A stretch of 20,868 nt of DNA, taken from a virus. The stretch lies in the IMG/VR virus record IMGVR_UViG_3300020158_000019, positions 1 through 20,868 of that record, one strand, 5' to 3'. The position numbers and the translations under genes are program-made. Positions 3,330-20,868 of this stretch are shown here, one piece after another. Below the pieces are notes generated by a model. The model did not search any database, was not told where the DNA came from, and was given only the letters and a program-made list of their open reading frames with translations. The first letter of the stretch is position 1. Every line of letters begins with the position of its first letter.

Positions 3330-4841
3330 TCAGAATGTTCCACCATCAATAGTAATACCATCAAAAGTAGTCAAATTGGTAATTGAACCGCCAGTAATTG
3401 CAACGCTGGAAGCCGCCTGTGTAGACATTGTACCAAGACCAGTAATATCGGTATTAGGGATAGTAGAAGAAGCTGTAAATGCAGTAGTGCCACTCGCTTT
3501 AACATATCCAGTCAATGTAGCAACCCCTGTTCCGCCATTGGCTACTGCAAGAGTACCAGTAACACCAGTAGTCATAGGCAAGCCTGTGCAGTTAGTCAAT
3601 ACACCGCTTGTAGGAGTGCCAAGTAAAGGAGTAACTAATGTCGGGCTTGTAGCAAATACTAAAGCTCCAGTTCCAGTTTTATCAGTAACAGCCGCTAATA
3701 AATTAGCAGATGATGGAGTAGTCAAGAATGTAGAGACCCCAGTACCCATACCAGTAACAGAGCCGATTGCTGGAGTAATAGTAGTATTAGTTACACTTGT
3801 TACTTGACCTTGTGCATTAGTTACAAATACAGGAGTCTGAGTAGCAGAGCCATAAGTACCAGCAGTACCAGCATTAGTGATGCTAAATACTGTGCCAGTA
3901 AGCGTTAATCCTGTTCCAGCAGTATAAGTACCCGCACCGCTAAATTGTGTCCAAGTGACGGCTGTAGTGCCTAAAGTGCCACCCGCATTTACTGTGCAAA
4001 CCCAACCAGTATCAGATTGTGTTGTTCCTGATTCAACAAATACATAAGCAGAAACTAATTCAGCCCAAGTATCAGCATCAGTAGTCCTAGTCCAAGCAGA
4101 AGCAGAAGCAAGATAAAGACCATTCTGAGATTGAGTGGTTTGATTCTTAACTAATACTCTATCGCCAGCAACAATAGAAACACCATCAATAGTTTGAGCC
4201 GCAGATAGCGTGATGTTTGCAGTAGTAGCCGCAACAACGGAAGCCTTAGTATCAAGACCTTGTGCCACATTATCTACATAGTATTTAGTTGCCGCATCTT
4301 GATTGCTGATAGGGTCAGCAAGACCAGTAATTTTAAATCCACCAAACGCATAATCGGCAGTAGGTACAGTTAAGTCGTTAATGTTTGCTGAAGTTGCCGC
4401 AGTAATAAGACCTTTGGCATTAACAGTCATTTTTAAATATGTACCCACATTACTATTAACTGTAGCAAGTGTACCTGTACCAGTTACATTCCCTGTACCA
4501 TCAAAAGAACCTGATGTGTAGGCTATATCACCAGTAATGGAAATTGTGCGACCAGTAGCAAGTGCAGTAGCAGTACCAGCGTTACCAGTAATAGAACCAG
4601 TAATAGTAGAACTAAATGTCTTTGCTCCACCGATTGTCTGAGTGGTAGAAGTATCAACAAAAGCCCCGTTACCAGCGATAGCAATAATTGAAGTTGCAGA
4701 GCCACCCGAACCTCCCGTGCCTGTTCCGTAATACAAAATATTTGTTTGTTCATTAAATGCTAATTCAGCATTTGCTAATGAAGCTGGAGCACCCGCACCA
4801 CCGCCATTTGCCCGTCTTTTAATACGAATAGTATTACTCAT
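3330..4841 (-). CDS. Tail fibre protein (503 aa)
   Basis: Residues 1-45 form a collar-like fibre N-terminus (IRIKRR, then LANAELAFNEQTNILYYGTG) parallel to that of the 797-residue fibre. A GNAGTATAL segment near 87-95 and a TGLADP...DAATKYYVD motif at 172-190 are typical of phage tail fibres. Residues about 195-300 form a discrete domain (IVAGDRVLVKNQT, GLYLASASAWTRTTDAD, then TWTQF) that I recognise from many fibre proteins. After it come NGGTG and GTPTSGVLTNCT repeats also found in the neighbouring fibre, and the protein ends in GITIDGGTF. ATG at 4841 has the RBS TAGGAGC. It is likely a virion adhesin or fibre segment co-assembling with the 797-residue protein. Confidence 0.87.
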   Translation of the reverse strand: MSNTIRIKRRANGGGAGAPASLANAELAFNEQTNILYYGTGTGGSGGSATSIIAIAGNGAFVDTSTTQTIGGAKTFSSTITGSITGNAGTATALATGRTISITGDIAYTSGSFDGTGNVTGTGTLATVNSNVGTYLKMTVNAKGLITAATSANINDLTVPTADYAFGGFKITGLADPISNQDAATKYYVDNVAQGLDTKASVVAATTANITLSAAQTIDGVSIVAGDRVLVKNQTTQSQNGLYLASASAWTRTTDADTWAELVSAYVFVESGTTQSDTGWVCTVNAGGTLGTTAVTWTQFSGAGTYTAGTGLTLTGTVFSITNAGTAGTYGSATQTPVFVTNAQGQVTSVTNTTITPAIGSVTGMGTGVSTFLTTPSSANLLAAVTDKTGTGALVFATSPTLVTPLLGTPTSGVLTNCTGLPMTTGVTGTLAVANGGTGVATLTGYVKASGTTAFTASSTIPNTDITGLGTMSTQAASSVAITGGSITNLTTFDGITIDGGTF

Positions 4842-8070: not shown

Positions 8071-11000
8071 GCCGCACCCGTTCTATCAAAGGTTTGCTGT
8101 ATAAATATTTGGTTTACATCAGTTGGTGTATTAGCCAAAACATAATCTCCAAATCCAGCCGCATAGTCTGTAACATCATCTAATAGTACCCCATTTTGAT
8201 AAATGTTCAAAGCATCAGCTACATAGCTAAATGGATAAGTGTCTTGTCCTATTACTGAATTACATACTACATTTATTGGAGTTCCATTAGGAATATTCAA
8301 ATTATTATTAGCCCATTGGTATATAGCTAATCTTCCAGTTACTAGACTTGGAAAATTTGTAATAGTCTGACCAACAATATCATAATCTTGCTCATTTACA
8401 GCAATACCATTTAAGAACATAAATTCATAGCCGCTATATATTGTAAAGGTTGTAGCCGTATAATTATTAGCATTTACTAAATCTACATAGTTCAAAGTAA
8501 ACGCATCATAAGTGCCTGTAGTCGTATTGTATGGTCTGAATGAAATAATAGTAATGATGTCATATATATTAGCACCAACTCCAAGCGTTACATTGCCAGT
8601 AGAACCGCCTGTATCTGTAAAGTTAGAAGTATCTAACAAAGAACCATTTTTAAACACCCAACAATTATTGATTCTGTAATTAGCGTTTCTAGTTACATGG
8701 AACAATGTCTGACCGCTTGTAGCAGTAAATTGTTGCATTGTGTAATTGAAATCATCAGGTGGCTCAAAGCCTAATACTCTGCCATAAATATCAATGGTCA
8801 ATTTTGCTACTGCCGCTGTGTATGTACCCGCACCACCTGATAGGGCTTGTAGTGCGGGGATAGGAGCAAGAGAAGCAACTACCTTACCATCAGAATTATT
8901 GGTTACTTTAATCTCGCCTGTCCCAACGCTAGTTGTCCCTGTTTCAGTAATTTGTCCTGTCCTATGGTCTAGGTCAATATAATTAGTTCCATCAGGCAAT
9001 CCCGACCACAAAGACGGGTCATAGTTTGCAAAATCAGTAGGCACAAAAGACCCAGTAGTAGCCGCATAATCCGCTTGCCCAGTACCGAAGCTGAATTTTC
9101 TACTACCTCTATTTATAAAAATAAGAAAGTTGTTTGTGCTGAAAGTAGGTGATGCGGCAAACCATGTAAACAATGCTGGATTAGTTACTGGAGAAGATGA
9201 AGATTCATTGTAAATTCCAAAAAATGATTTTCCTCTAGGATTAGTAGTAAATCCTGTTCCTGTAATACTGTCTGCATAAGCTACAACAAGATAGCGTTGG
9301 CTAAACTGTAAAGTATATGGTCGCCATACTAATACTGAACTAGGTAAACTGAAATTTGATGTGCTAAGACTATTCACCATACGACTAAAGAAATAATAAT
9401 CTCCAGTAGGAAGATTAGTTATATCCACATTACCCATAGATGAACTTGGGTCATAAGGCAATCCGCTTGGTCTTACGGCAGTAGTGCCAGCAAAGAATCG
9501 TTGTCCATCCGTAGGGTTTGAGTAAATTGAGTACCAAACTTCTGCGTACTGTGCAATACCAGCAGAAGAAGAAGTAATTGCTAAAGTAATAGTAGGATTA
9601 GCACCATTAGGTGTCGTAGATGCCACTACAGGAGGCGGAATTGTTCCGAAGGTACTAGGGCTAGGCAGACCAGTATTTGGAGGAGGTGCGTATTGTGTAA
9701 TACTTACATCATCATAAACTGCGGGGTCATACTCTTGCAGAAGCAAAGAAACTGTAATACCCGAATCAGATTGAAAATTCTGTTCTACACGCAAGCATCG
9801 GAATAATTTAGCAACCCATCCATAATTGGCATTTGTTACAGATACAATATCACCCGCTTCTAATTCCAATCCAGTAAAGTTAATAGTTGTCTGAATTTGT
9901 AAATCTTGACGAGCCGACTTTAAAAAACGAGTAGCTAATAATTGAGCTTGAACATCGTTATTTACTAATGGCAAAGCAATAGTCTGACTATTCTGAGGTT
10001 CATTGGGGTACAGCAAAGAAGGGTCTACTTCTGATAAATCAATAGTGCTTGTATTGAAAGCAGAATTTAAAGTCATGTCAGGAAATTGACACTCTGCAAT
10101 ATTATAAGTATTAGATATATCTAAAGTAGTAATGGTGATAGCAGAAATCATATTGCTATCGTTGATATCCATTACTGATGGGGTAGATGGAGATTGAACT
10201 ACTATGCTCCATTGACCATAAATTTCATTGTATTTAAGCAAACAATCACAGCAAGCAGTCATATTTTGAAGATTGACCATTACTGATTTTGTTGTATCTA
10301 CTGCACCATTAAATTTAAATCTTGCCTGAGTAGATGGAACGCCTAGATGGTCATTAAATGTAATAAGTTCATTACTGTATGCAGTTAAAGCCGTAAGGCT
10401 TGCGGTATCAATCTGTGTTGGGTCAATAGCCGCACCATATACAGTATTGGTTAAATAATCATAGAGAACATCTCCAGTATTATTTGTAGAATTATTTATT
10501 TGAAATTGGGTCTGTGCTAATTGAGTTACATTAGCATTAGTATTATAAGTAAGTCTAATAATTGCAAAAACTGTGTTTGTCATCAGTTTTGTGCTATCCC
10601 ATGTATAAGTCAATCCATCAGCTTGCATTACTTCTATGGCAGTTGCCGTAGTATTGGTAGGATTTAATGAACCATTGTTATATAGATAAAAATGAATTAA
10701 ACCATTGACGGCTGTATCTACTGCTCCTGTTGATGTATCAATCAATCCAGTTACGCTTGTGCCATCTAATACAACTTTTTTTCCGCCATAAAAAATATCA
10801 CCGAATGTAATAGTAGATGCACCGCTATTAGTTACTTCGCTAATAGATACAACATAGTAAAGATTTTGATTGTCTGATGTAATAGAAAGGTCGGTAACTG
10901 TGCCACCAATAAAAGTGCTTCCATACACTACAGGCAATTTATTATTAGTTGCTGGAGGTACTTGGACATTTGAACCCGAATTAAGAGTTAATTGATTTGA

Positions 11001-11168
11001 GGTATTTTGGTCATAGCTAGGAGGTTTAGGTGCTGTTACGGCAGAAATAATAGAAGAAGCCATCATAGTGACTCCCATCATTATCAGTTGCGGTTGTCCA
11101 GTCCATACACCAATGACTACGACTACTGCACCGACAATAGCTCCTATAATTCCTCCGCCTCCGCCCAT
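8067..11168 (-). CDS. J-like tail tip / central hub protein (1033 aa)
   Basis: Large tail-tip protein, positioned as lambda J is, after the distal tail proteins and before the fibres. Residues 1-47 are glycine-rich and hydrophobic (MGGGGGIIGAIVGAVVVVIG, then further hydrophobic stretches to about 47), which is common in this hub family. The next ~450 residues look like a phage hub of the Phage-tail_3 kind (YGAAIDPTQIDTASLTALTA, then CCDCLLKYNE and LEAGDIVSVTN). The middle has fibronectin-like strands. Residues about 808-1033 hold three related modules around ...F.NG..L/V...Y.... : VFKNGSLLD, MFLNGIAVNEQDY, IYQNGVLLDDVTDY. It probably caps the tube and carries fibres. Start ATG 11168 lies 1 bp after the previous stop; its RBS is weak, so coupling is likely. 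Confidence 0.87.
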   Translation of the reverse strand: MGGGGGIIGAIVGAVVVVIGVWTGQPQLIMMGVTMMASSIISAVTAPKPPSYDQNTSNQLTLNSGSNVQVPPATNNKLPVVYGSTFIGGTVTDLSITSDNQNLYYVVSISEVTNSGASTITFGDIFYGGKKVVLDGTSVTGLIDTSTGAVDTAVNGLIHFYLYNNGSLNPTNTTATAIEVMQADGLTYTWDSTKLMTNTVFAIIRLTYNTNANVTQLAQTQFQINNSTNNTGDVLYDYLTNTVYGAAIDPTQIDTASLTALTAYSNELITFNDHLGVPSTQARFKFNGAVDTTKSVMVNLQNMTACCDCLLKYNEIYGQWSIVVQSPSTPSVMDINDSNMISAITITTLDISNTYNIAECQFPDMTLNSAFNTSTIDLSEVDPSLLYPNEPQNSQTIALPLVNNDVQAQLLATRFLKSARQDLQIQTTINFTGLELEAGDIVSVTNANYGWVAKLFRCLRVEQNFQSDSGITVSLLLQEYDPAVYDDVSITQYAPPPNTGLPSPSTFGTIPPPVVASTTPNGANPTITLAITSSSAGIAQYAEVWYSIYSNPTDGQRFFAGTTAVRPSGLPYDPSSSMGNVDITNLPTGDYYFFSRMVNSLSTSNFSLPSSVLVWRPYTLQFSQRYLVVAYADSITGTGFTTNPRGKSFFGIYNESSSSPVTNPALFTWFAASPTFSTNNFLIFINRGSRKFSFGTGQADYAATTGSFVPTDFANYDPSLWSGLPDGTNYIDLDHRTGQITETGTTSVGTGEIKVTNNSDGKVVASLAPIPALQALSGGAGTYTAAVAKLTIDIYGRVLGFEPPDDFNYTMQQFTATSGQTLFHVTRNANYRINNCWVFKNGSLLDTSNFTDTGGSTGNVTLGVGANIYDIITIISFRPYNTTTGTYDAFTLNYVDLVNANNYTATTFTIYSGYEFMFLNGIAVNEQDYDIVGQTITNFPSLVTGRLAIYQWANNNLNIPNGTPINVVCNSVIGQDTYPFSYVADALNIYQNGVLLDDVTDYAAGFGDYVLANTPTDVNQIFIQQTFDRTGAA

Positions 11169-11169
11169 G

Positions 11170-11592
11170 CTATATTTTCCAAGTATTTTGTAACTTCGTT
11201 GCTCCGTATCTACTAAAATCAGATTCGCTAAAACAAGAGAAATGAGCTTCTTTAATTTCTCCAGTATCTTTCATAGCATTTCCAATTTCCATAAATTTCT
11301 TAAATAACTTTAATGATGTCTTATCATTTTTTGAGTGCCAAATTATTTCATGCAAAGAAAAAGCATTTTCTATAAAAAAACAAGGGGCTTTTAATGCCAC
11401 CAAAATTCCGCTTCCATCTTCTGCTATCAATATAAATCCAGCACCAGCCAATACCATGCTTAATTGTTTATTAACATATTCCTCTGACCATGTTGCTTCA
11501 TCTTTTAATATGGCAAACTTATGCAATCTACAAAAATGTCTTAATAAATCATGTATTACAGGAAAATCAAATTTGTTTCCATATCTAATCAT
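11170..11592 (-). CDS. GNAT-like N-acetyltransferase encoded within the tail-tip operon (140 aa)
   Basis: 140 residues with the layout of a short GNAT domain: an N-terminal helix after MIRYGNKFDFPVIHDLL, a central beta hairpin AGAGFILIAEDGSGILVAL (about 49-67), a strand SLHEIIWHSK (79-88), a helix (about 92-108), and an ending SRYGATKLQNTWKI (127-140) like the GNAT C-terminal element. The expected V-x-x-x-x-R/Q-G/A-x-G/A acetyl-CoA loop is not obvious to me, so activity is uncertain. I recognise the opening and this tail-gene location from other phages. The gene overlaps the upstream gene by 4 bp (ATGA) and ends 1 bp before the J-like gene, so it is co-expressed with tail proteins. The substrate is unknown: tail or host protein, or an assembly factor without activity. 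Confidence 0.7.
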   Translation of the reverse strand: MIRYGNKFDFPVIHDLLRHFCRLHKFAILKDEATWSEEYVNKQLSMVLAGAGFILIAEDGSGILVALKAPCFFIENAFSLHEIIWHSKNDKTSLKLFKKFMEIGNAMKDTGEIKEAHFSCFSESDFSRYGATKLQNTWKI

Positions 11593-12182
11593 GTTTGTTT
11601 ACCAAAAGGCAAATATAGATTTGAAATTGTTGCTACTCTATTCATTGATGTATCAGTAGGATTATAAAATTGCCAACTAGCATTATTGGTAAATCTACCA
11701 GCAACTCTATTTTGTAAAATCATTTGAATATTAGCCGCATTTACTGTAATCAATCCAACATACATCCTAACTTCTTCCATCCATTGTTCGCCAATAGAAA
11801 AAGAATTGATATATCCATAAAAATATTGATATAGACCACCCATGCCTCCTGTAGTAAGAAGCTGTCCATTTGTATCAAAAAAGCCTTTCCACATTGTTAT
11901 TTGTGAGCCTTTTAAATTTGTACCTAAGACAAGGCTTAGCATTGATGTATCAATACCTATAAGCGTAATACTTGTTTGATTTGCAGTAGATTTAATATCA
12001 CGCTGAATCTTTCCGATATCTACAAGTTGTCCAAGACCATCAAATGGTAATGGGTCTACAGCAGTAATAGTCAATGCCGTAGGTGATGTAGAAAAACGAT
12101 ACTCACCTTCTCCTGTAACAATGCGAACAAAATCCGCATAGCGAATATTATTAGTATCTACTACTGGAGGAATTACATTCAT
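11589..12182 (-). CDS. Minor tail / tail-tip protein (197 aa)
   Basis: 197 residues, beta-rich. It contains FVRIVTGEGEYRFSTSP near the N-terminus, SQITMWKGFFDTNGQLL mid-protein, and NRVAGRFTNNASWQFYNPTD followed by MNRVATISNLYL near the end. The N-x-x-G-x-x-TN ... Q-x-Y-x-P-x-D pattern recalls minor tail proteins (lambda L / DUF2163-like) that sit between tape measure and hub. The gene is coupled on both sides by 4-bp overlaps. By position it belongs to the tail-tip complex that nucleates tube assembly. Confidence 0.72.
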   Translation of the reverse strand: MNVIPPVVDTNNIRYADFVRIVTGEGEYRFSTSPTALTITAVDPLPFDGLGQLVDIGKIQRDIKSTANQTSITLIGIDTSMLSLVLGTNLKGSQITMWKGFFDTNGQLLTTGGMGGLYQYFYGYINSFSIGEQWMEEVRMYVGLITVNAANIQMILQNRVAGRFTNNASWQFYNPTDTSMNRVATISNLYLPFGKQT

Positions 12183-12862
12183 ACAATAGCCTCAAATGCT
12201 TTGAATGCTTGATTCCAGCTAACAAACGAATCATTAGTCATAGGTATTAAAGTATAGTTTGGATATTGCTGAAGTATGACAGGAAAAGTTATTCCTGTAT
12301 AAGTAGAGCCGCCCATTGATACAGTAGTCCCGTATTGACCTATAACTGCATTTATTGGACTCGATAAGCTAGATATAAGGTTGCGATGAACAGGGATAGA
12401 AACAGTAGACCCACTACCACGCAATACATCAGATGTAGCAATATACGCATATCTCCCCACTTGGCAAAAATCTCCAGCCTTAACAATATAAGCTGTAGAA
12501 CTAATAGAAGGTAAAGAACCTAAAACTAATATTTTATTAGCGGATGCAATCTGCCATTGGCAAGTAGCTATTTGTCCCGAAGTCATGCTACCTTGATAGG
12601 CAACATAATTAACCCATCCAGTAGGAGTGAAGTTTAAATATTGTTCTAACGATTTATCGTAGTAACGAAGATTAGCTAATAAATCACGGCTCTGAGAATA
12701 TAGTTGGAAATTATTAGGTTTAAATTCAAATTGGAATGGCACATTAGTAACAATCTCACTTGTGCTAATTCGTTGATTACGGCTAATAGCTTGACCAACA
12801 AATCTTTGGTCAGTAATAGATACTTGTTCTGAAATAGAAAGGATAGTAGTTAGGTTTGCCAT
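12179..12862 (-). CDS. Distal tail protein-like (227 aa)
   Basis: 227 residues. The N-terminal half has ISISEQVSITDQRFVGQAIS-like wording and a strand-rich stretch (TNVPFQFEFKPNNFQLYSQS, then DLLANLRYYDKSLEQYLNF and GWVNYVAYQG), and the C-terminal half is beta-rich (AIVGRYAYIATSD-like strands, then PVILQQYPNYTLIP). It is the first gene after the tape measure, the usual place of the Dit/lambda-M-type protein that caps the tube's distal end. Its ATG shares an A with the tape-measure stop (TAATG). I recognise the family from other phages as an unnamed tail protein; the Dit assignment rests on position. Confidence 0.7.
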   Translation of the reverse strand: MANLTTILSISEQVSITDQRFVGQAISRNQRISTSEIVTNVPFQFEFKPNNFQLYSQSRDLLANLRYYDKSLEQYLNFTPTGWVNYVAYQGSMTSGQIATCQWQIASANKILVLGSLPSISSTAYIVKAGDFCQVGRYAYIATSDVLRGSGSTVSIPVHRNLISSLSSPINAVIGQYGTTVSMGGSTYTGITFPVILQQYPNYTLIPMTNDSFVSWNQAFKAFEAIV

Positions 12863-14805
12863 TATCTGCTCGCTGGTAAACTTCTTTGTGCATTTAGATT
12901 AGCCGCCCAAACTGCTTGCTGATTCTTAGCAAGAAACTGCGTTGCAGATTGAGTGTCAATGGCTGATAGATTTGCAATATATGGACCATTGTAAGTAACT
13001 CCACCGCCACCGCCCATTACATCGCTTAATTGATTATTAGGGACAATAGTTCCAGCACGATTTGGAATAAATAATTCGGGTCCATGTTCACCTACAAGGC
13101 TTGGCACTCCTACTGGAGGACTACCGCCATCGGCAAATCCTTGTGCCGCTAACATAGCTGTTTGTTGAGAACCAACATTTGTTCCATATTGCATTGCAGT
13201 TCCAATATTTAAACCGCCCATAAATCCAAACATTGAACTAATGCCTTGCATCATTAACATTCTTAATTGAATTTTAATAAGGTCTTTTATAATACTTGAA
13301 GCTAAATCACCAAAAGATATTTTCCCAGTTTCAACAAAATTATCTAATGCTGAATTCATATTTCCAGTAAAACTGGTAAACATATCTTCAGCCATTTTTC
13401 CGTAATTTTTAGAATCTTCTGCATATTGTTGAAACGCTTTATCCCATCCATAAGCGAAAGTTCTTTGAGCTTCAATAGCACCTTCTTCTTGTATGCGAGT
13501 AGTTTCAGCAAATGCTTTACCTAGTTCTTTTACTTTTTCAATTTGGTTATCATACTCAGCAAGAATTTTTTTATCTGCTCCACGACCAGCCGCATCTTCT
13601 CGCTTCTTAGTTATTTCATCAATTTTTTTGCTAGTATCATCTAATGCTTTTTGTACGGCTTGATATATTCTAGCTTCGTCTTTAGTCATAGCCAATATAG
13701 CTATTTCATTTCTTTGCTTCTGTTCACTAAATTCGATTTGTCTTTTATATTCAACAGATATTAATCTTGTTACTGCTAACATTTCTTCTAGCTTTTTAGC
13801 TTCGCTAGATAATTGTGTTGTTCTATCTTTCTGTGGAGTTACACCTTTAGCAGTAGTAGTCGGGTTCATTAGCTCTTTAGCAAAGGCTCTATCTGCTTCA
13901 CGTAGCTTGCCTACGTATTGGTCATACTCTTTTAATCGTTGGCTAAATGTATTGAACTTGCCATTAGCCATATCATCTAAAGTAAGTCCAACTAAATTTA
14001 CTGCGGCATTTATTGTTTGTAGAGCAGTAACAAAAAGCCGAACATCATAGATTACTGCCTTAAAAGCAAGTCCCGCTATGAACATAAAATCTTCCATAGC
14101 ACTTCCCGCTTTGTTCATTGCATCAAAAACAGTATTCATCGCTGGCAAAAAAGTAGCGGTAAACATTAAAGTAGTACGAGTAGCTTTAGCAGTAAGTTTG
14201 TCATGCAAGTCTGCGGCTGTTGCTACAGCATCCGCATATTTTTGCCATGCTCCATCACCTTCTTTGATTAGGTCGTTGAAATTGACCATATCTACACCAC
14301 GCATACCTTTACCCATTAACTGAATTTTTATATCAGTCATGGTTGCGATATCCCCTAGCTTGGCAATCCCAGCTACAGTTCGGTCAAATAGCTTTGCTGT
14401 GTCTCCGCTACTTAAATCTTTTAATGAGATGCCTACCTTTTTAAAGGCATCTTGCAAAGATTGAGAGCCCATAGCGGCTGAAGAAATATTGGCATTAAAT
14501 TTTTCTAATACTTTGCCTACATTGTCAAATTTACCGCCTGACATTTCTAAAGCATCGCCAATTTTTAATACGCTGGCAATAGTATGGTTAGTAGAATCGG
14601 CAGTATCAGAAATAGAATCTGCAAAGTCCATAGCGTGCTTTGCCATGCCAATAAAAGCCGCACCTACAGCTAGAGCCGCCATTGGAGCTTTAGCCGCTAA
14701 GTTGTTTGTAAAGTCATTTAGCGACTTTTTAGCCGATTCCATGCCCATTACAAAATCGCCTGTTTCTAAGGCTAGAACCACTCCAAGTCTTGCTGTATTT
14801 GCCAT
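12862..14805 (-). CDS. Tail tape measure protein (647 aa)
   Basis: Sets tail length and is later ejected into the host envelope. Start MANTARLGVVLALETGDFVM is the typical opening of these proteins. An N-terminal hydrophobic stretch spans about 34-56, and further hydrophobic helices lie near 210-275. Residues ~330-450 are charged and coiled-coil-like. The C-terminal part contains AYGWDKAFQQYAEDSKN and FGDLASSIIKDLIKIQLRML, typical of lambda-type tape-measure C-termini. The end has FADGGSPPVG, VGEHGPELFIPN and GTIVPNNQL. RBS GGAG lies upstream of ATG 14805. At the usual ~0.15 nm per residue, 647 residues predict a tail near 95-100 nm (inference). Confidence 0.95.
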   Translation of the reverse strand: MANTARLGVVLALETGDFVMGMESAKKSLNDFTNNLAAKAPMAALAVGAAFIGMAKHAMDFADSISDTADSTNHTIASVLKIGDALEMSGGKFDNVGKVLEKFNANISSAAMGSQSLQDAFKKVGISLKDLSSGDTAKLFDRTVAGIAKLGDIATMTDIKIQLMGKGMRGVDMVNFNDLIKEGDGAWQKYADAVATAADLHDKLTAKATRTTLMFTATFLPAMNTVFDAMNKAGSAMEDFMFIAGLAFKAVIYDVRLFVTALQTINAAVNLVGLTLDDMANGKFNTFSQRLKEYDQYVGKLREADRAFAKELMNPTTTAKGVTPQKDRTTQLSSEAKKLEEMLAVTRLISVEYKRQIEFSEQKQRNEIAILAMTKDEARIYQAVQKALDDTSKKIDEITKKREDAAGRGADKKILAEYDNQIEKVKELGKAFAETTRIQEEGAIEAQRTFAYGWDKAFQQYAEDSKNYGKMAEDMFTSFTGNMNSALDNFVETGKISFGDLASSIIKDLIKIQLRMLMMQGISSMFGFMGGLNIGTAMQYGTNVGSQQTAMLAAQGFADGGSPPVGVPSLVGEHGPELFIPNRAGTIVPNNQLSDVMGGGGGVTYNGPYIANLSAIDTQSATQFLAKNQQAVWAANLNAQRSLPASR

Positions 14806-15156
14806 TTATTTTTCTCCAAACAATACTGAGGGTGCATTAGGACTCATCATGGCAAAAGCCAATAAGTTGTCGCTTGCTAACTGTTTCTTGTCTTGTTCTA
14901 GTAATGGCGGGTACAAGTAATCATAGACCTGCGGGATAATGTCATTGAGTTTATATGGTGCAGAACCTTTTGGCAATACTTTGTTAAATTGTCCAGCCGT
15001 TAATGCACCAAGAACTTGAATGATTCCTAAGTTACCTATTACTCCATCGTTATACATAATGCAAATATCTGCAAAAGTGTCTTGGTCTATTACTGATGGG
15101 TCAGCTCCGTGTGCAGTCAAATAGGCTTTGACTTGCCTTCCGACTGACCTAATGAC
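14806..15156 (-). CDS. Tail assembly chaperone C-terminal (T) part, made by -1 frameshift
   Basis: This frame codes 116 residues plus stop and lies between the G-like gene and the tape measure. It has no ATG: the first initiation-type codon is TTG at 15120 and no RBS precedes it. The frame stays open upstream through the end of the G-like gene to the GGGAAAG heptamer at 15162-15156. A -1 slip there fuses 160 residues of the G-like protein to VIRSVGRQVKAYLTAHGADP and onward, giving a 276-residue product (15635-14806). The segment contains FADICIMYNDGVIG and LYPPLLEQDKKQL and is helical. In lambda the GT fusion binds the tape measure and recruits tube protein; I infer the same role. Confidence 0.85.
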   Translation of the reverse strand, partial: VIRSVGRQVKAYLTAHGADPSVIDQDTFADICIMYNDGVIGNLGIIQVLGALTAGQFNKVLPKGSAPYKLNDIIPQVYDYLYPPLLEQDKKQLASDNLLAFAMMSPNAPSVLFGEK

Positions 15157-15635
15157 TTTCCCCGAGTAGATGAATACTCAGGTGAAATAGTTTCTGCAAT
15201 CTGTTCCATTACTTGAACTTGGATGGAGAAAGGAAATAGCTCGTCAATCATTTCATAAGTAATAGTTGCCATGTCAAAACCTTCTTCTTCGGGAACAAGG
15301 AATTTAAACATCTCAGTAATCTGTCTATCAGTATTAGATTTATGAGTAGCGGCTTCACGCATAGAACGACCATCGAGTATTACGTCATGCTCTAAAAACT
15401 TTATATCCATTCCTTCTACAGCATCATCTTTATGAGCAATAAGGTCTGCAGTAAGTTTGCTGTAATACTTCTCAATAGCTTCTTCGTCTTTAATTTTAAG
15501 ACGTTCATTCATTGCTTCTACCTCAGAAGTCAATGGGACTTTAACTTTGAACGTATGACTGCCTAATTCAAAAGTTCGTGTCCGTACAACAATCTTATTA
15601 AATTTCCCGCCAAATGCTTGTGCTAAATCAGCCAT
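15117..15635 (-). CDS. Tail assembly chaperone, G-like (172 aa)
   Basis: 172 residues, starting MADLAQAFGGKFNKIVVRTR, with a beta-like N-terminus (ELGSHTFKVKVPLTSEVEAM) and helices further on (EEAIEKYYSKLTADLIAH, FKFLVPEEEGFDMATITYEM). Size, charge and the position between tube and tape measure fit lambda gpG. The last dozen codons after the slippery heptamer encode a hydrophilic tail (SLGQSEGKSKPI) absent from the frameshift product. ATG 15635 has the RBS AAAGG and overlaps the previous gene's end by 8 bp. It probably coats the tape measure before tube polymerisation. Confidence 0.85.
   Translation of the reverse strand: MADLAQAFGGKFNKIVVRTRTFELGSHTFKVKVPLTSEVEAMNERLKIKDEEAIEKYYSKLTADLIAHKDDAVEGMDIKFLEHDVILDGRSMREAATHKSNTDRQITEMFKFLVPEEEGFDMATITYEMIDELFPFSIQVQVMEQIAETISPEYSSTRGKSLGQSEGKSKPI
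15156..15162 (-). promoter_or_regulatory. Programmed -1 ribosomal frameshift site, G GGA AAG
   Basis: On the minus strand the heptamer GGGAAAG occupies 15162-15156. In the G-like frame the codons are CGG GGA AAG, so it reads G GGA AAG in the phase needed for tandem -1 slippage. The same heptamer is the known lambda G/GT shift site. After slippage the -1 frame (GTC ATT AGG TCA ...) stays open into the T-like region with no stop. Confidence 0.88.
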
Positions 15636-16182
15636 ACAATACCTTTCTCGCTTGTCTTACCTTGTATTTTTCTAATGCTATCTTTAATGTATTACTTAAT
15701 GAGTTTACTACAGCTCCAGCGTTGCTTTCTAGGGCTGGTCTGAGATAAGGTCTAGCGGCTACATTAGCTGTGCCGTATTCCATAGCGACTGCCCGTGCAT
15801 CAGGCTTTCCAATAATTTTGTGCTTCTTATCTTTCTTGGCATCGTAAGAGCCTTTGATGTCATATACCTTAAAGCCTTTTGCCAGCCGTTTAAGATTAGC
15901 GGTAGTCACTACGGCAATTACTGCATCCGTTGATTTAACATATTTGCTATTAAGGTCACGTCTTGATGGTCGTCTTGCTTCTATATGTAATGAAGCCCTA
16001 AGTTGACCTGTATCAGAAGGAGCTAGAGTCCTTGCTGTAGATAGAACGGGAGCCATAGACATACGAACTGCGGAAGTCAATATGCCTTGTGCATCTTTCG
16101 GACCAAAATCGACTTGCATTTGATTTAGCAATTCGATTAACTCTCTACCGCCCGTAAATCCAAATTTGACGTTATATGCCAT
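15628..16182 (-). CDS. HK97 gp10-like head-tail / tail-completion protein (184 aa)
   Basis: It contains GGRELIELLNQMQVDFGPKD, the APSDTGQLRASLHIEAR motif, and near the end AVAMEYGTANVAARPYLRPA, which are the landmarks of the HK97 gp10-like family: DTG-x-L-R-x-S, then an E-[YF]-G-T ... ARP-[YF]-L-RPA motif. Family members complete the head-tail or tail-tube interface. I chose ATG 16182 (MAYNVKF) because GGTGA sits 5 bp upstream; ATG 16194 would add four residues and lacks a good RBS. Both overlap the end of the preceding gene. Unusually, it follows the tube gene instead of preceding it. A KKDKKHK patch lies near residues 119-126. Confidence 0.83.
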   Translation of the reverse strand: MAYNVKFGFTGGRELIELLNQMQVDFGPKDAQGILTSAVRMSMAPVLSTARTLAPSDTGQLRASLHIEARRPSRRDLNSKYVKSTDAVIAVVTTANLKRLAKGFKVYDIKGSYDAKKDKKHKIIGKPDARAVAMEYGTANVAARPYLRPALESNAGAVVNSLSNTLKIALEKYKVRQARKVLYG

Positions 16183-16408
16183 TGCTTTCACCATTCTTAA
16201 TCATCTTATTGTAGATAGCATTATTTAATGCCATTACATATTCAACGACTTCTTCGGGTGAAATTTTGTCTGCATGAATCTTAGCAATCTCATACGCAGT
16301 ATGGATGCCAGCAATACGTTGTTGATGAAAGCCAAACCAATTCTTAGTTCCCGAATTGGATTGGCTAATCAGGAAACTCAATAAATCATTATTCGATTGA
16401 ATCTGCAT
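16172..16408 (-). CDS. Small phage protein of unknown function (78 aa)
   Basis: 78 residues, mostly helical by composition (NNDLLSFLISQSNSGTKNWF, then QQRIAGIHTAYEIAKIHADK and EEVVEYVMALNNAIYNKMI). No membrane segment, catalytic motif or family that I recognise. ATG at 16408 overlaps the 52-residue gene by 20 bp and has no strong RBS, so translation probably depends on the upstream gene. Its location after the tube and before the gp10-like protein suggests a tail-assembly accessory role. Confidence 0.7.
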   Translation of the reverse strand: MQIQSNNDLLSFLISQSNSGTKNWFGFHQQRIAGIHTAYEIAKIHADKISPEEVVEYVMALNNAIYNKMIKNGESNGI

Positions 16409-16547
16409 TTTTTATTGTTTTCTTTTGTGGTTCATCTTGTAATACTACTGGGTTGAATGGGTCGTTTCCATCAGCAAGGCATTTAGCAATAGCCTCATCA
16501 ATGTCTGCGACCTCATACACCTTGCCATTAGCAAATTGAACTTTCAT
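16389..16547 (-). CDS. Small phage protein of unknown function (52 aa)
   Basis: 52 residues from ATG 16547 to TAA 16391-16389. It begins MKVQFANGKVYEVADIDEAI, continues DGNDPFNPVVLQDEP and ends in a Lys/Asp-rich tail. A textbook ribosome binding site (AAGGAG, 6 bp before ATG, overlapping the tube gene's stop TAAGGAG) supports strong expression. It overlaps the following gene by 20 bp. No family recognised; it may be a small tail-assembly accessory, judging from its place right after the tube gene. Confidence 0.75.
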   Translation of the reverse strand: MKVQFANGKVYEVADIDEAIAKCLADGNDPFNPVVLQDEPQKKTIKNADSIE

Positions 16548-16556
16548 AACTACTCC

Positions 16557-17051
16557 TTAAGCTGAATTGCTCCAGCCGTATTGATTGCCACGTGGGTGGA
16601 TAGTAAACACACATTTGGATTCAGCACCGGGCTGTGCATCTATATGGAATTGACTTACTCGACCATTGAAAGCGTAGTAAACAATGTTTGCTCCATCAGT
16701 AGCAGAGATAACATAAGTGCGGTCAACTGTTCCGCTATAAGCATCGCCACGAATCAATAGCAAGTTAGCATCGCTAGGATTCCAAGCGGCTGTTATTGTC
16801 ATTGAAGTTGGTGCTGACTGTGTAGGGATTTTGTCTGACTGACGACTACCAGCAACCATAAAAGATGCAACAGCATCGTCTTGACCAAAAGTAGGGACAG
16901 CTTCAACTGGTACTAAATTGTTTGTTACTGCAATAGCAGAAACAGAAGCTAACACAGAAAGGTTTGCAGTAGTCAAAGCAGTAGGAGATGCACTTGGTTG
17001 CATATAGAGTGCCGCACTAAAGCCGGGTAATACTTTATTTGGGAGAGCCAT
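16557..17051 (-). CDS. Major tail tube protein (164 aa)
   Basis: 164 residues. It begins MALPNKVLPGFSAALYMQPS, a pattern typical of tube proteins with a beta-sandwich core. Further landmarks are TFGQDDAVASFMVAGSRQSD, SAPTSMTITAAWNPSDANLL (a tube-type T-x-x-x-x-W-P/NPSD feature), RTYVISATDGANIVYYAFNG and VFTIHPRGNQYGW. Length and position, between the terminator-like gene and the gp10/chaperone genes, match a siphovirus tube subunit assembled as stacked hexamers. It has a good RBS (AAAGGAC) in a 34-bp gap. Confidence 0.87.
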   Translation of the reverse strand: MALPNKVLPGFSAALYMQPSASPTALTTANLSVLASVSAIAVTNNLVPVEAVPTFGQDDAVASFMVAGSRQSDKIPTQSAPTSMTITAAWNPSDANLLLIRGDAYSGTVDRTYVISATDGANIVYYAFNGRVSQFHIDAQPGAESKCVFTIHPRGNQYGWSNSA

Positions 17052-17085
17052 GATAAGTCCTTTTTAAAAGTTAAATAATTTTATC

Positions 17086-17496
17086 TTATGTTGGAATATC
17101 TAGAGTGCAATCCATAATAATCTGGTGCAATCCTACCGCATTGTCGTATGTGTTGTAAAGCCAATCTACGTCTGCCTTTGATACCCAAAAGCCGCTACTG
17201 CCTCCAAACTGTCCGCTATAGCCATGGAGAGATTGTAGGATAGTATTTGAAATATTAAAAGCAGTTTGCATATCTTGACTAAAGACGGACATTTGAAAGA
17301 TAGGTCTATCAATGCCTTTTATGTTTTGGACTGTACCCGTATAGACGGGTTGGTGGATGTGACGTAATTGCCAAGTCAAAAAACTAGGCTCAGTCGCAAA
17401 GTTTCGATTAAAGTTAGCATAGACTGGAATAGTAAGAAGCGTATCTAATTGGTATTGAATAGCTTGTGCATATACCGAAGGGCTGTTCTGACTCAT
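17086..17496 (-). CDS. Tail terminator-like protein (136 aa)
   Basis: 136 residues beginning MSQNSPSVYAQAIQYQLDTL. An N-terminal helix is followed by strands (RPIFQMSVFSQDMQTAFNIS) and a C-terminal HQIIMDCTLDIPT. The helix-beta layout, length and place upstream of the tube gene fit DUF3168/lambda U-type tail terminators, which cap the tube's head-proximal end. The QxSVFSQD strand is what I would expect of this family. Overlaps the upstream gene by 4 bp (ATGA). Confidence 0.75.
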   Translation of the reverse strand: MSQNSPSVYAQAIQYQLDTLLTIPVYANFNRNFATEPSFLTWQLRHIHQPVYTGTVQNIKGIDRPIFQMSVFSQDMQTAFNISNTILQSLHGYSGQFGGSSGFWVSKADVDWLYNTYDNAVGLHQIIMDCTLDIPT

Positions 17497-17837
17497 ACTG
17501 GCACCACAGGGTCATTACGATAGCAATAAAAAATAACAGTCATGCGGTCATCTGCTTCAACAGCAGAATCAATCCGCCAAGCCTTATCCCGCCAAAGGAT
17601 GCTATATAGGTTTTGGTTATCTACCATTTCTTTAGTATTAGGTGTGTAGTTCACTTTAAAATTTACTAAGTCGGTATAAACCCTATCATTCGGATTGATA
17701 TTTAAAGAGTTGCGTACTGAATGAACAACGGCTCTCGTTCTGAACCATAAAGCGGTAGACGTAGTTTGTTGTCCAAAAGAATCTACTCCATTGGTTACGT
17801 TGTTGACTTCAATGTTTTCAAACCGAGCTATCCCCAT
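17493..17837 (-). CDS. Head-tail stopper-like protein (114 aa)
   Basis: 114 residues of beta-rich sequence: ENIEVNNVTNGVDSFGQQTT, WFRTRAVVHSV, VNFKVNYTPNTKEMVDNQNL, ILWRDKAWRIDSAVEADDRM. These are features of the Phage_H_T_join family (SPP1 gp16-like), especially the conserved W.I......DDR.....Y pattern. It would seal the connector after DNA packaging. Its ATG shares its A with the stop of the upstream adaptor gene (TAATG), a coupled junction. Confidence 0.78.
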   Translation of the reverse strand: MGIARFENIEVNNVTNGVDSFGQQTTSTALWFRTRAVVHSVRNSLNINPNDRVYTDLVNFKVNYTPNTKEMVDNQNLYSILWRDKAWRIDSAVEADDRMTVIFYCYRNDPVVPV

Positions 17838-18496
17838 TACATCACCAATGGCTTATATGGTCGTAGTAATTGAGCAACACCAAAAGGAATTTCTCTCAAT
17901 ATAGATTCAGAAGTATTAGACCTATTGTTATAAAGATGAGTAAACAACAATAGACCCGCTTGCTTCACTACTGGGTATTGTGCAATAAAGCTAGCCTTAG
18001 TCGAATACGTTACCTGTATAGGATTACTCATACTTGTATTGATTGAATCAGGCAAAGTCTGAATGATTACTTTATTGCCTGTTTGGTCATAGAAGTATTG
18101 TGTAGAAGCAAGCACATTCTTAACAGCACTAAAGCCATCTGAACCAGTAGTGTAGTAAGCAACTTCGTTAATCGTGATTCCAGCTTCGCTAACCTCAGGC
18201 AAATCCAAGAAAGCGGGAGAGCCAAAAGTATCCGTAGCTCCGTAGTAGCAACGATATTGAACTGGAAAAATAGTCAGCCCAATAAAATCTTCAATAGCCA
18301 TGCGGACAGCGACTTCTAAACTAGACAGATAAGTGTCCTGACTTTCATCTTGAAACAGATTAAGTTGTTGCGTAATCTCATCAAGCGTTAGCCATTCTGT
18401 AACGATGTCACGACTGATTTGCTCAACCTTTTCATAATTGAAAGGATTACGATTAGTCCCGTAACTTGGGTTAGTCATCAGTCCATTATTAGACAT
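17837..18496 (-). CDS. Head-tail connector adaptor, HK97 gp6-like (219 aa)
   Basis: 219 residues. WLTLDEITQQLNLFQD (about 36-51) is the typical opening of gp6/SPP1 gp15-like adaptors. VAVRMAIEDFIGLTI-type helix and a helical end (YPVVKQAGLLLFTHLYNNRS) followed by FGVAQLLRPYKPLVM complete the all-helix-plus-insert layout. A dodecamer attaching under the portal is the family role. Located directly after the second capsid gene, whose final codons supply its RBS (GGAG, 7 bp before ATG 18496). Confidence 0.83.
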   Translation of the reverse strand: MSNNGLMTNPSYGTNRNPFNYEKVEQISRDIVTEWLTLDEITQQLNLFQDESQDTYLSSLEVAVRMAIEDFIGLTIFPVQYRCYYGATDTFGSPAFLDLPEVSEAGITINEVAYYTTGSDGFSAVKNVLASTQYFYDQTGNKVIIQTLPDSINTSMSNPIQVTYSTKASFIAQYPVVKQAGLLLFTHLYNNRSNTSESILREIPFGVAQLLRPYKPLVM

Positions 18497-18498
18497 GA

Positions 18499-19530
18499 TT
18501 AAGCTCCGTAGAGACGGACACCAGCAAATACATCACGAATAGAAGAACATACACGCTTCTCAGCATACAAAGTAATAAAGCCGGGTGCTGTTTGGTCTAG
18601 ACGTTGAATAGTCATATCTTCACGGTCTGCAATAGAAAAGAACTTGTCCCATTCAGCAAGGTACACGGGATAGTGACCCGAAGCCGCAGTCTCCATGTAC
18701 GCATTAGGGATTACAGGCATACCAAAAACATAGAGAACAGAACCGCCATCATCATCGCCAACCTCTAAGAACATAGGTGAGCCGCCAGTAGATGCTTTTA
18801 ATTTACGCAAAGCACCAATGGTAGTTGGGTGCATCATCCAAGCTGTTGTTGGTTGATACAAATACTGGGCTGGCAACTTGGCTTGTAAGTTAGCTAAGTC
18901 GTCATAAGAAATTGCTGTTGCAGATGCTTGTGCTACTTGTAATACTGTATGCAAGCCATCAGTCATAGCACTTCCGCTAGAGCCAAATGATGCGGCAGAG
19001 GTAGAGCCAGCGTAGCTATTTAATCCACGCAAACCAGCCGTGCCGCCATACGTAGTAGTCGTAGAACCTGATTGGTCATTGTTATACATCATAGATTGAG
19101 CTTCAATTTGGCTGAACTCTAAAGCCAAGTCTGCAACAATCGCTTCTTCTAAATAATTTACATCCTCTAAAACTGCTGTGCGGATAGGCAGAGAAGCATT
19201 GATAACTTGCAAAGGCAATTCCCAAAATACTGTTGCTGTGTTGGGACTACCTGTATTGTCTTTAACTCCATATCCCCATGGGTTTGTTGGGTCAGTAGCA
19301 TTACCGACTTTAGCAACAAAGGCTTCTTCTGAGCCGATAGTAGGAAATTGTCTTGCTACTTTACGTAATGGGTTAGCCAAACGTAGTGAAGCGAAGGCAT
19401 CGTCATAAATTACACGACCACCAACCCCTGAACCAGAACCAGTAAGGGCTGATGCTTCTTTTAAATTTACAGTTGCTTTGCCATGAGTAATGGCTTCCTT
19501 AACAGCTTCGAGAATAAGATTGGTTGTCAT
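18499..19530 (-). CDS. Second HK97-fold major capsid protein paralogue, no delta domain (343 aa)
   Basis: 343 residues. From KEASALTGSGSGVGG (about 24-38) it aligns along its whole length with the upstream capsid protein: LRLANP, AKVGNA, IEAQSMMYNNDQSG versus VEAQSMILNSDQTD, YGGTAGLRGLNSYAG, and the end DQTAPGFITLYAEKRV. It lacks the long coiled-coil N-terminus of its neighbour and starts almost at the mature core (MTTNLILEAVKEAITHGK). It could be a second shell subunit, a pentamer (vertex) subunit, or the product of a duplication. RBS GGAAT precedes ATG at 19530. Confidence 0.85.
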   Translation of the reverse strand: MTTNLILEAVKEAITHGKATVNLKEASALTGSGSGVGGRVIYDDAFASLRLANPLRKVARQFPTIGSEEAFVAKVGNATDPTNPWGYGVKDNTGSPNTATVFWELPLQVINASLPIRTAVLEDVNYLEEAIVADLALEFSQIEAQSMMYNNDQSGSTTTTYGGTAGLRGLNSYAGSTSAASFGSSGSAMTDGLHTVLQVAQASATAISYDDLANLQAKLPAQYLYQPTTAWMMHPTTIGALRKLKASTGGSPMFLEVGDDDGGSVLYVFGMPVIPNAYMETAASGHYPVYLAEWDKFFSIADREDMTIQRLDQTAPGFITLYAEKRVCSSIRDVFAGVRLYGA

Positions 19531-19534
19531 TTTG

Positions 19535-19577
19535 ATTCCAAATAAAGATTAAGAATGGGGGGATTTCTCCCCCCATT
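19535..19577 (-). terminator. Hairpin with T-rich tail between the two capsid genes, likely attenuating terminator
   Basis: On the minus strand AATGGGGGGA / GAAA / TCCCCCCATT forms a perfect 10-bp stem (19577-19568 with 19563-19554) closed by a GAAA tetraloop, followed by CTTAATCTTTATTT (9 T of 14). It sits 3 bp after the first capsid gene's stop. The T tract is interrupted, so partial termination or an mRNA-end stabiliser is likelier than full termination, since the downstream genes have no evident new promoter. Confidence 0.72.
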
Positions 19578-19580
19578 TCA

Positions 19581-20868
19581 TTAGGTTGCAGTACCAGTAG
19601 AACGGAAACGAATAATGCTGAATGGGTCTACAACAGAAGTTGCCAAACGCTTCTCACCAAAGAAAGTGATATAGCCTGGCAATGTCTGGTCGTATCTACG
19701 CAGAACCATGTTCAAGCGGTCAACGATGGTAAAGCCTTTTTGCCAGTCCCCAAAATACATTGGATAGAGGCTAGTTGTACCAGCAGAGCCAGTAGTTGTC
19801 TGTGAAGGAGTAGAAAGATATTTGTTAACTACTACATCAAAGCCTAACAACTGACCAACGATGCCATCAGTACGAGCCAAGCCATCAACATAGATTGGGC
19901 GACCTTGTGAGTCTACCAAGCCACGAATTGCTTGCAACAAGATTGGGTTGATAACAAACTTAGCTGTCTCAGTCCAATATTGTTGTGGCAAGCTATATAC
20001 AAAGTTGATAACGTCTTTATAAGTGATGGCATTAGCACCAACTGTATTTACGTTTGAAGTCAACTGGTCGTATGTAGCAATGCTATGCAAACCGCTTGAA
20101 GAACCTGTACCGCTAGTACCGAAAGCGGCTGTAGAGATTGTTCCACCAGCGTATGTAGCATTAGCACCAGCGTATTGATTTAGACCACGCAGACCATTTG
20201 TTCCACCATAAGTATTAGGTGAATCAGTTTGGTCGGAGTTCAAAATCATACTTTGTGCTTCGACTTGTGAGAATTCAGCAAGCATGTCTGATACAACATT
20301 GCTTTCCAAACCATCAATGTCATCCAAAGCGGCAGTACGGATTGGGAACTGTACGTTCAAATCTTGCAAAGTTAATTGCCAAATATTGGTGTTTTCAGTT
20401 GTGGCAGAGCCATTGTTTTGAATTGAGTAACCCCAAGTAGCACCAGCATTGCCAACTTTTGCACGGAATTGATAAGTAGAGCCATCAGTAGCTACTCCAC
20501 GTGCAACACCACGCATTGGATTAGCAAGACGCAACGGAACGAATACTGGGTCATAGGCAGTACGACCACCTACACCAGCACCGCCACCTGTCAATGCAGA
20601 TGCTTCTTTGAAGTACGCATCATATTGACCAGCATCTTCAAACATTTTGATTTCTTTTTGCACACGGGCTTCGCCAGCAACAAAAGACTTCAACTGTTCT
20701 TTAACTGAACGATTAACTTCAGAAGAAATAGTTTTGTAAGTCTTTATTAAAGAAGGAGCTTGAATAGAGGCAACTTTGGCTTCTAATGCGGCAACTTTTT
20801 CTTCAAAAGATACAACTGCTTCTTCAACTTTTTTTACTGCTTCGGCTTTGCCTTCTTCAATCTTAGCA
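19581..20868 (-). CDS. HK97-fold major capsid protein with delta domain, 5' end cut by window edge
   Basis: 428 residues are visible and the frame is open to the right edge. Visible residues 1-36 are a charged coiled coil (KIEEGKAEAVKKVEEAVVSF, FEEKVAALEAKVASI), as expected for the HK97 delta/scaffold domain. The segment VKEQLKSFVAGEAR links it to the core, which begins near KEASALTGGGAGVGGR. Core landmarks are PVFVPLRLANPMRG (N-arm/E-loop region), FSQVEAQSMILNSDQ, TYGGTNGLRGLNQYAG, a PILLQAIRGL helix and the ending RRYDQTLPGYITFFGEKRL. The TTG near 20693 is internal and not the start. A cleavage site near the delta/core junction is inferred. Confidence 0.92.
   Translation of the reverse strand, partial: AKIEEGKAEAVKKVEEAVVSFEEKVAALEAKVASIQAPSLIKTYKTISSEVNRSVKEQLKSFVAGEARVQKEIKMFEDAGQYDAYFKEASALTGGGAGVGGRTAYDPVFVPLRLANPMRGVARGVATDGSTYQFRAKVGNAGATWGYSIQNNGSATTENTNIWQLTLQDLNVQFPIRTAALDDIDGLESNVVSDMLAEFSQVEAQSMILNSDQTDSPNTYGGTNGLRGLNQYAGANATYAGGTISTAAFGTSGTGSSSGLHSIATYDQLTSNVNTVGANAITYKDVINFVYSLPQQYWTETAKFVINPILLQAIRGLVDSQGRPIYVDGLARTDGIVGQLLGFDVVVNKYLSTPSQTTTGSAGTTSLYPMYFGDWQKGFTIVDRLNMVLRRYDQTLPGYITFFGEKRLATSVVDPFSIIRFRSTGTAT

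Follow-up and report, generated by a model that had tools for sequence, protein, structure and literature searches.

A second HK97-fold capsid protein gene, here called M2, was found directly behind the major capsid protein gene (M1) in a 20,868-base virus fragment, and the pairing of M1 with M2 is obligate in the group of phages to which this fragment belongs. The whole fragment that was analysed is referred to as the window. These data indicate that what is annotated as 'hypothetical' in these phages is the gene of a second capsid protein. The pair appears to be an independent as well as obligate case. It occurs in widespread small phages of fresh water, one of which, Methylophilaceae phage P19250A (KX815270), is in culture, and the question of why one capsid protein splits into two becomes testable in this simple ~38-kb system. 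No report of a tandem or duplicated capsid pair of this kind was found in the open PubMed Central literature, although an unseen report is possible; within that literature the conserved M1-M2 pairing is so far unremarked.

Results and discussion

Tandem capsid genes in the window

The start of a minus-strand head-and-tail operon lies at the right-hand end of the window. M1 (19581..20867, minus strand), the major capsid protein with a delta-like N-terminus, is represented by 428 aa; its start codon lies outside the window, the 5' end being off the contig at 20867, and about 18 residues are missing as judged from relatives. M2 (18499..19530, minus strand; 343 aa), a second HK97-fold capsid paralogue that we propose to be a minor or vertex subunit, follows after 50 bases. 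Both proteins match PHROG 10 (major head protein) and PF05065 (Phage_capsid), M1 with an E value of 5.8e-30 (105.1 bits) and M2 with 2.4e-23 (83.4 bits) against a curated cut-off of 24.2. M2 is a member of the PF05065 HK97 capsid family, and this is its only Pfam match up to E 0.1. In a preliminary description of this DNA the two minus-strand reading frames had been read as tandem HK97-fold paralogues with cores aligning end to end, and both points were borne out: M1 and M2 of the window share 41% identity over 342 aa (E 6e-67), and all of the motifs quoted there (KEASALTG, LRLANP, VEAQSM, YGG…GLRGLN and DQT.PG.IT…EKR) were found.

A gene for a head-tail connector of the gp6-like/Ad1 type (17837..18496, minus strand; PF05135, E 9.3e-6; PHROG 40) comes directly after M2. 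Further downstream, weak matches to head-completion and tail-tube proteins were obtained, and a lambda-type tape measure (12862–14805) forms part of the same head-and-tail operon. At 883-3276 and 3330-4841 the window also encodes two repetitive Thr/Gly/Ser-rich proteins with recurring GTVTSV and GTGLTLTGT motifs, which are likely to be tail-fibre or tip proteins.

Predicted fold

Structure prediction gave a model of M2 with a mean pLDDT of 70.7, for which the best match was the RcGTA capsid protein (Foldseek E 1.6e-18; VIA Z 22.7 and rmsd 3.9 over 253 residues against 6tb9), followed by the capsids of cf-PICI EcCI2, Mycofy1 and HK97. According to this model M2 has the HK97 fold, so that the fold assigned in the preliminary description was recovered by structure prediction. 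T4 gp24 was absent among the 50 structural-aligner entries listed for the M2 model, an absence that excludes nothing. The model of M1 is poor (mean pLDDT only 46.8), and its fold assignment is therefore based on sequence, namely on PF05065 and a profile match to RcGTA 6TB9 (E 8.5e-11). The RcGTA major capsid protein is the nearest solved structure to the M2 fold and the nearest by sequence for both M1 and M2, but it belongs to a different lineage.

Conservation of the pair and the isolate P19250A

Loci were collected with M1 or M2 as the query from scans of IMG/VR, together with the isolate P19250A, and the survey thus covers this group rather than all phages. One alignment scan alone returned at least 585 IMG/VR relatives. 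M1 is followed by M2 on the same strand in all 136 distinct complete pairs fetched, and each fetched locus that shows only one paralogue is truncated by the end of its contig. The search for other phages with the same pair that had been suggested for this DNA was therefore successful, both among these pairs and in P19250A. In 115 of 116 loci the gene immediately preceding M1 encodes a relative of the S78 protease, and in 121 of 121 relatives the gene immediately following M2 encodes the connector. Complete M1 proteins have a median length of 447 aa and M2 proteins one of 348 aa. One locus (L176:2078-2421) has a 344-bp gap between M1 and M2 with a short reading frame in it; the motif DVDHKDGDRKNNLESNLQTLCANCHR of this frame is like that of HNH endonucleases, and the product may be a small homing endonuclease. 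In a search of bacterial genomes the only matches were five MAG contigs with unrelated taxonomic assignments; they look like co-binned phage contigs and for that reason no host was drawn from them.

The P19250A genome (38,749 bp) carries the pair in the same order and setting, with the gene sequence terminase, portal, S78 protease, M1, M2 and connector, and its M1 is 70% and its M2 56% identical to the proteins of the window. The order portal, protease, major capsid protein and paralogue resembles that of T4 genes 20-24. In the P19250A record M1 is named 'gene transfer agent capsid protein' and M2 'hypothetical protein', and no second capsid protein was recognised. Gene 23 of this phage (L003:21390-24995) is annotated as tape-measure, a label that may be wrong; gene 15 (10718-12502) occupies the usual tape-measure position. 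The marine phage Venkman has been described as a relative of P19250A, and the paper on it speaks of just 'a capsid protein' (PMC8163748). Venkman was absent among the matches listed in a terminase search of the phage collection.

Origin, selection and recombination

In the maximum-likelihood tree all M1 sequences formed one clade and all M2 sequences its sister clade, split together from the single-capsid outgroups with support of 100/100. As M1 and M2 are sister clades, the duplication would precede the diversification of the group, and the tree points to a single ancient duplication of the major capsid gene as the source of both. The precise position of the root is less certain than the split between M1 and M2, because the support of the M1 clade is weaker (84/72) and the tree program warned of long branches meeting. 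The stem branch of M2 is long (1.48).

Both proteins are under strong purifying selection, with median omega values of 0.110 for M1 and 0.107 for M2. M2 has diverged faster than M1 (mean pairwise identity of 63% versus 69%). Across phages the M1 and M2 identities are moderately correlated (Spearman 0.32) and some phages carry a swapped M2, from which it follows that co-adaptation of the two proteins is not tight. In the window itself, M1 is nearest to L084/L086 (90%) and M2 to L091/L087 (95–96%); these different nearest relatives suggest recombination within the capsid gene pair, and M2 is exchangeable among phages.

N-terminal regions

The N-terminal region of M1 in the window (residues 1-87; 20607..20867, minus strand) contains 34% charged residues versus 14% in the M1 core, is predicted to be mostly helical (helices 2-34, 47-64, 66-73 and 79-87 in a low-confidence model) and ends at the K-EASALTG junction. 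Its charge fits an HK97-type delta domain. Domains of this type combine a charged helical N-terminus of ~100 aa with an adjacent prohead protease gene, and both features were found for M1, the protease gene in P19250A and other relatives, as it lies outside the contig of the window. Only M1 of the pair has such a delta-like N-terminus. Before the shared EASALTG junction, of which the E is invariant in the M1 alignment and in the M2 alignment, M2 has ~24 aa versus ~105 aa in M1. The M2 segment (residues 1-24; 19459..19530, minus strand; MTTNLILEAVKEAITHGKATVNLK in the window) is conserved, follows the pattern LILEAVKxALxEGxATVNLK and includes a model helix at residues 5-16; we propose that it is a short propeptide. 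If the protease cuts M1 at the EASALTG junction, M2 may be trimmed too. The preliminary description had placed a scaffold domain in the upstream protein only and had M2 starting at the core; the delta-like N-terminus is indeed confined to M1, while the second part has to be modified in view of the ~24-aa N-peptide of M2.

A subclade of M2 proteins carries an extra N-domain of ~100 aa (L005:4701-6029; also L007, L015, L016, L021, L032, L033, L051 and L162). This domain belongs to phrog_2859, is unrelated to the M1 N-terminus and shares ~61% identity with the N-terminal part of the Roseobacter phage CRP-406 capsid protein; phrog_2859 also occurs in Synechococcus phages S-CBS1 and S-CBS3, in S-CBS1 at the N-terminus of the capsid protein. 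The long M2 form was considered as a carrier of the ancestral delta domain and rejected, since its N-domain is of a different family. In another relative (L117:2858-4105), M2 has an insert of ~80 aa after VVNTGNATN that matches the tail-fibre-type families phrog_21413 and phrog_38233; it looks as though this second capsid protein had taken up a surface domain.

Expression signals between the two genes

A hairpin resembling an intrinsic terminator is located between M1 and M2 of the window (19554..19577, minus strand; AATGGGGGGAGAAATCCCCCCATT, then CTTAATCTTT). It heads the terminator-like list in a scan of 9000-20868, with the most G-C pairs, and the post-M1 hairpin likewise heads the corresponding list for P19250A. 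Among distinct loci, a G+C hairpin and then T-rich sequence come right after M1 in 105 of 117, compared with 5 of 117 after M2 and none of 98 before M1; dinucleotide-shuffled sequences gave 7%. The post-M1 hairpins comprise 90 distinct stem-arm pairs, and the structure is therefore kept while its sequence varies. A hairpin after the capsid gene was also found in the single-capsid outgroups Bcep176, Azospirillum phage Cd and the phage IMGVR 517045, so it did not evolve to dose M2; it seems to be an old terminator of the capsid gene, with M2 placed downstream. It could instead stabilise the M1 mRNA rather than end transcription.

The calculated ribosome-site energy is -5.6 kcal/mol for M1 and -3.6 kcal/mol for M2, and the site of M1 is the stronger one in 95 of 99 loci. 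The sites listed by a promoter scan of the window include no minus-strand site immediately in front of M2. By these indirect signs, the terminator-like hairpin after M1 and the stronger M1 ribosome site among them, M2 should be the scarcer subunit, and we predict that M1 is made in excess of M2.

Comparison with known systems

The closest parallel is T4, in which gp24 forms pentamers and is thought to be derived from gp23 by duplication, with a propeptide of 10 aa versus 65 aa in gp23 that is removed by the prohead protease (PMC9958956). Like gp23 and gp24, M1 and M2 are two HK97-fold paralogues of which the second has a much shorter N-terminal segment, and M2 may work like gp24. Unlike T4, the phages with M1 and M2 are much smaller (~38 kb), encode PF05065 proteins resembling the RcGTA capsid and have the scaffold fused to M1. 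In the capsid tree, which was built without T4 proteins, M2 grouped with M1 apart from the single-capsid outgroups; because the two group together within their own lineage, the duplication looks independent of that in T4. In SaPIbov5, the pentamer-forming protein Ccm is a homologue of the delta-domain capsid protein of the helper phi12, with a delta region of 87 residues versus 128 in the latter (PMC8569155). Ccm is a satellite product by which the head size of the helper is redirected, whereas M2 is a gene of the phage itself and always present. A two-protein shell with a scaffold-less second subunit, earlier regarded as unusual for this DNA, thus has precedents in T4 gp24 (PMC9958956) and SaPIbov5 Ccm (PMC8569155).

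Two HK97-fold shell proteins that are encoded together and co-assemble are also known from the Family 2B encapsulin Enc1/Enc2 of Streptomyces lydicus, in which tiling is irregular and composition variable (PMC12407261). An encapsulin is a cellular compartment without portal, protease or DNA, unlike the M1/M2 phage, and is encoded in a non-viral operon with a cargo enzyme; M1 and M2 belong to an operon of phage head genes that also includes terminase, portal, protease and connectors.

Proposed role of M2

On balance, and by analogy, we favour the view that M2 co-assembles into the shell as a minor subunit, most likely as the protein of the pentameric vertices. The shortened N-terminus that it shares with the precedents, together with its dose signals, makes the vertex role the best single guess, and the signals of M2 scarcity fit the vertex or minor role suggested in the preliminary description; sequence alone cannot separate a pentamer from a hexamer position. 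In the proposed scheme, M1 and M2 go back to a single ancient duplication of the gene for the major capsid protein, in a lineage of siphovirus-like phages of ~38 kb. M1 would be the main shell subunit with its delta-like N-terminus as a built-in scaffold, which the S78 prohead protease from the preceding gene would cut off. M2 would be a second shell subunit that leans on the scaffold of M1 and is incorporated into virions, probably after trimming at the K/R-EASALTG junction as in M1. Its dose would be lowered by the post-M1 terminator and the weaker ribosome site, and its position would most likely be at the eleven pentameric vertices, as for T4 gp24. We infer a T=7 head from the genome size of P19250A by analogy with HK97, which would correspond to about 55 copies of M2 versus about 360 of M1.

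It is possible, though unlikely, that M2 and M1 co-assemble across the whole shell in mixed capsomers or by irregular tiling, like the two-component encapsulin. The full HK97 core is kept in both paralogues and aligned end to end, the M2 model matches both encapsulin chains with Z of about 16, and in the Streptomyces lydicus particle all interfaces are allowed (PMC12407261); against this, the dose signals of the two genes differ, with a consistent bias towards M1, the phage and satellite precedents both put the paralogue at fixed pentamer positions, and the long M2 stem branch suggests specialisation. A more specific version, an obligate two-paralogue T=7 shell with M1/M2 mixed capsomers in which the one scaffold-bearing subunit directs both, appears more doubtful still, and no description of such a plan for a tailed phage was found in the literature searched.

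Quite unlikely in our estimation is an M2 of very low copy number that sits near the portal vertex only or aids the start of assembly or the choice of head size. Its weaker ribosome site, its place behind a terminator and its adjoining connector genes would agree with this, but a full HK97 fold under strong selection is what is expected of a lattice subunit, and no HK97-fold paralogue of a portal ring was found in the literature searched. That M2 acts outside the phage's own mature head, in assembly only or in alternative particles, seems improbable. No virion proteomics or structure for these phages was found in the literature searched, but M2 occurs throughout the group, in obligate pairing with M1 and among head genes, and a relic or interference gene would have disappeared or changed place in part of the 136 pairs. 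A redundant recent copy without a special role, to which the 34-43% identity between M1 and M2 of one genome might be thought to point, was rejected as highly improbable, since the tree indicates a single ancient duplication, omega is about 0.11 and M2 is never lost in complete pairs.
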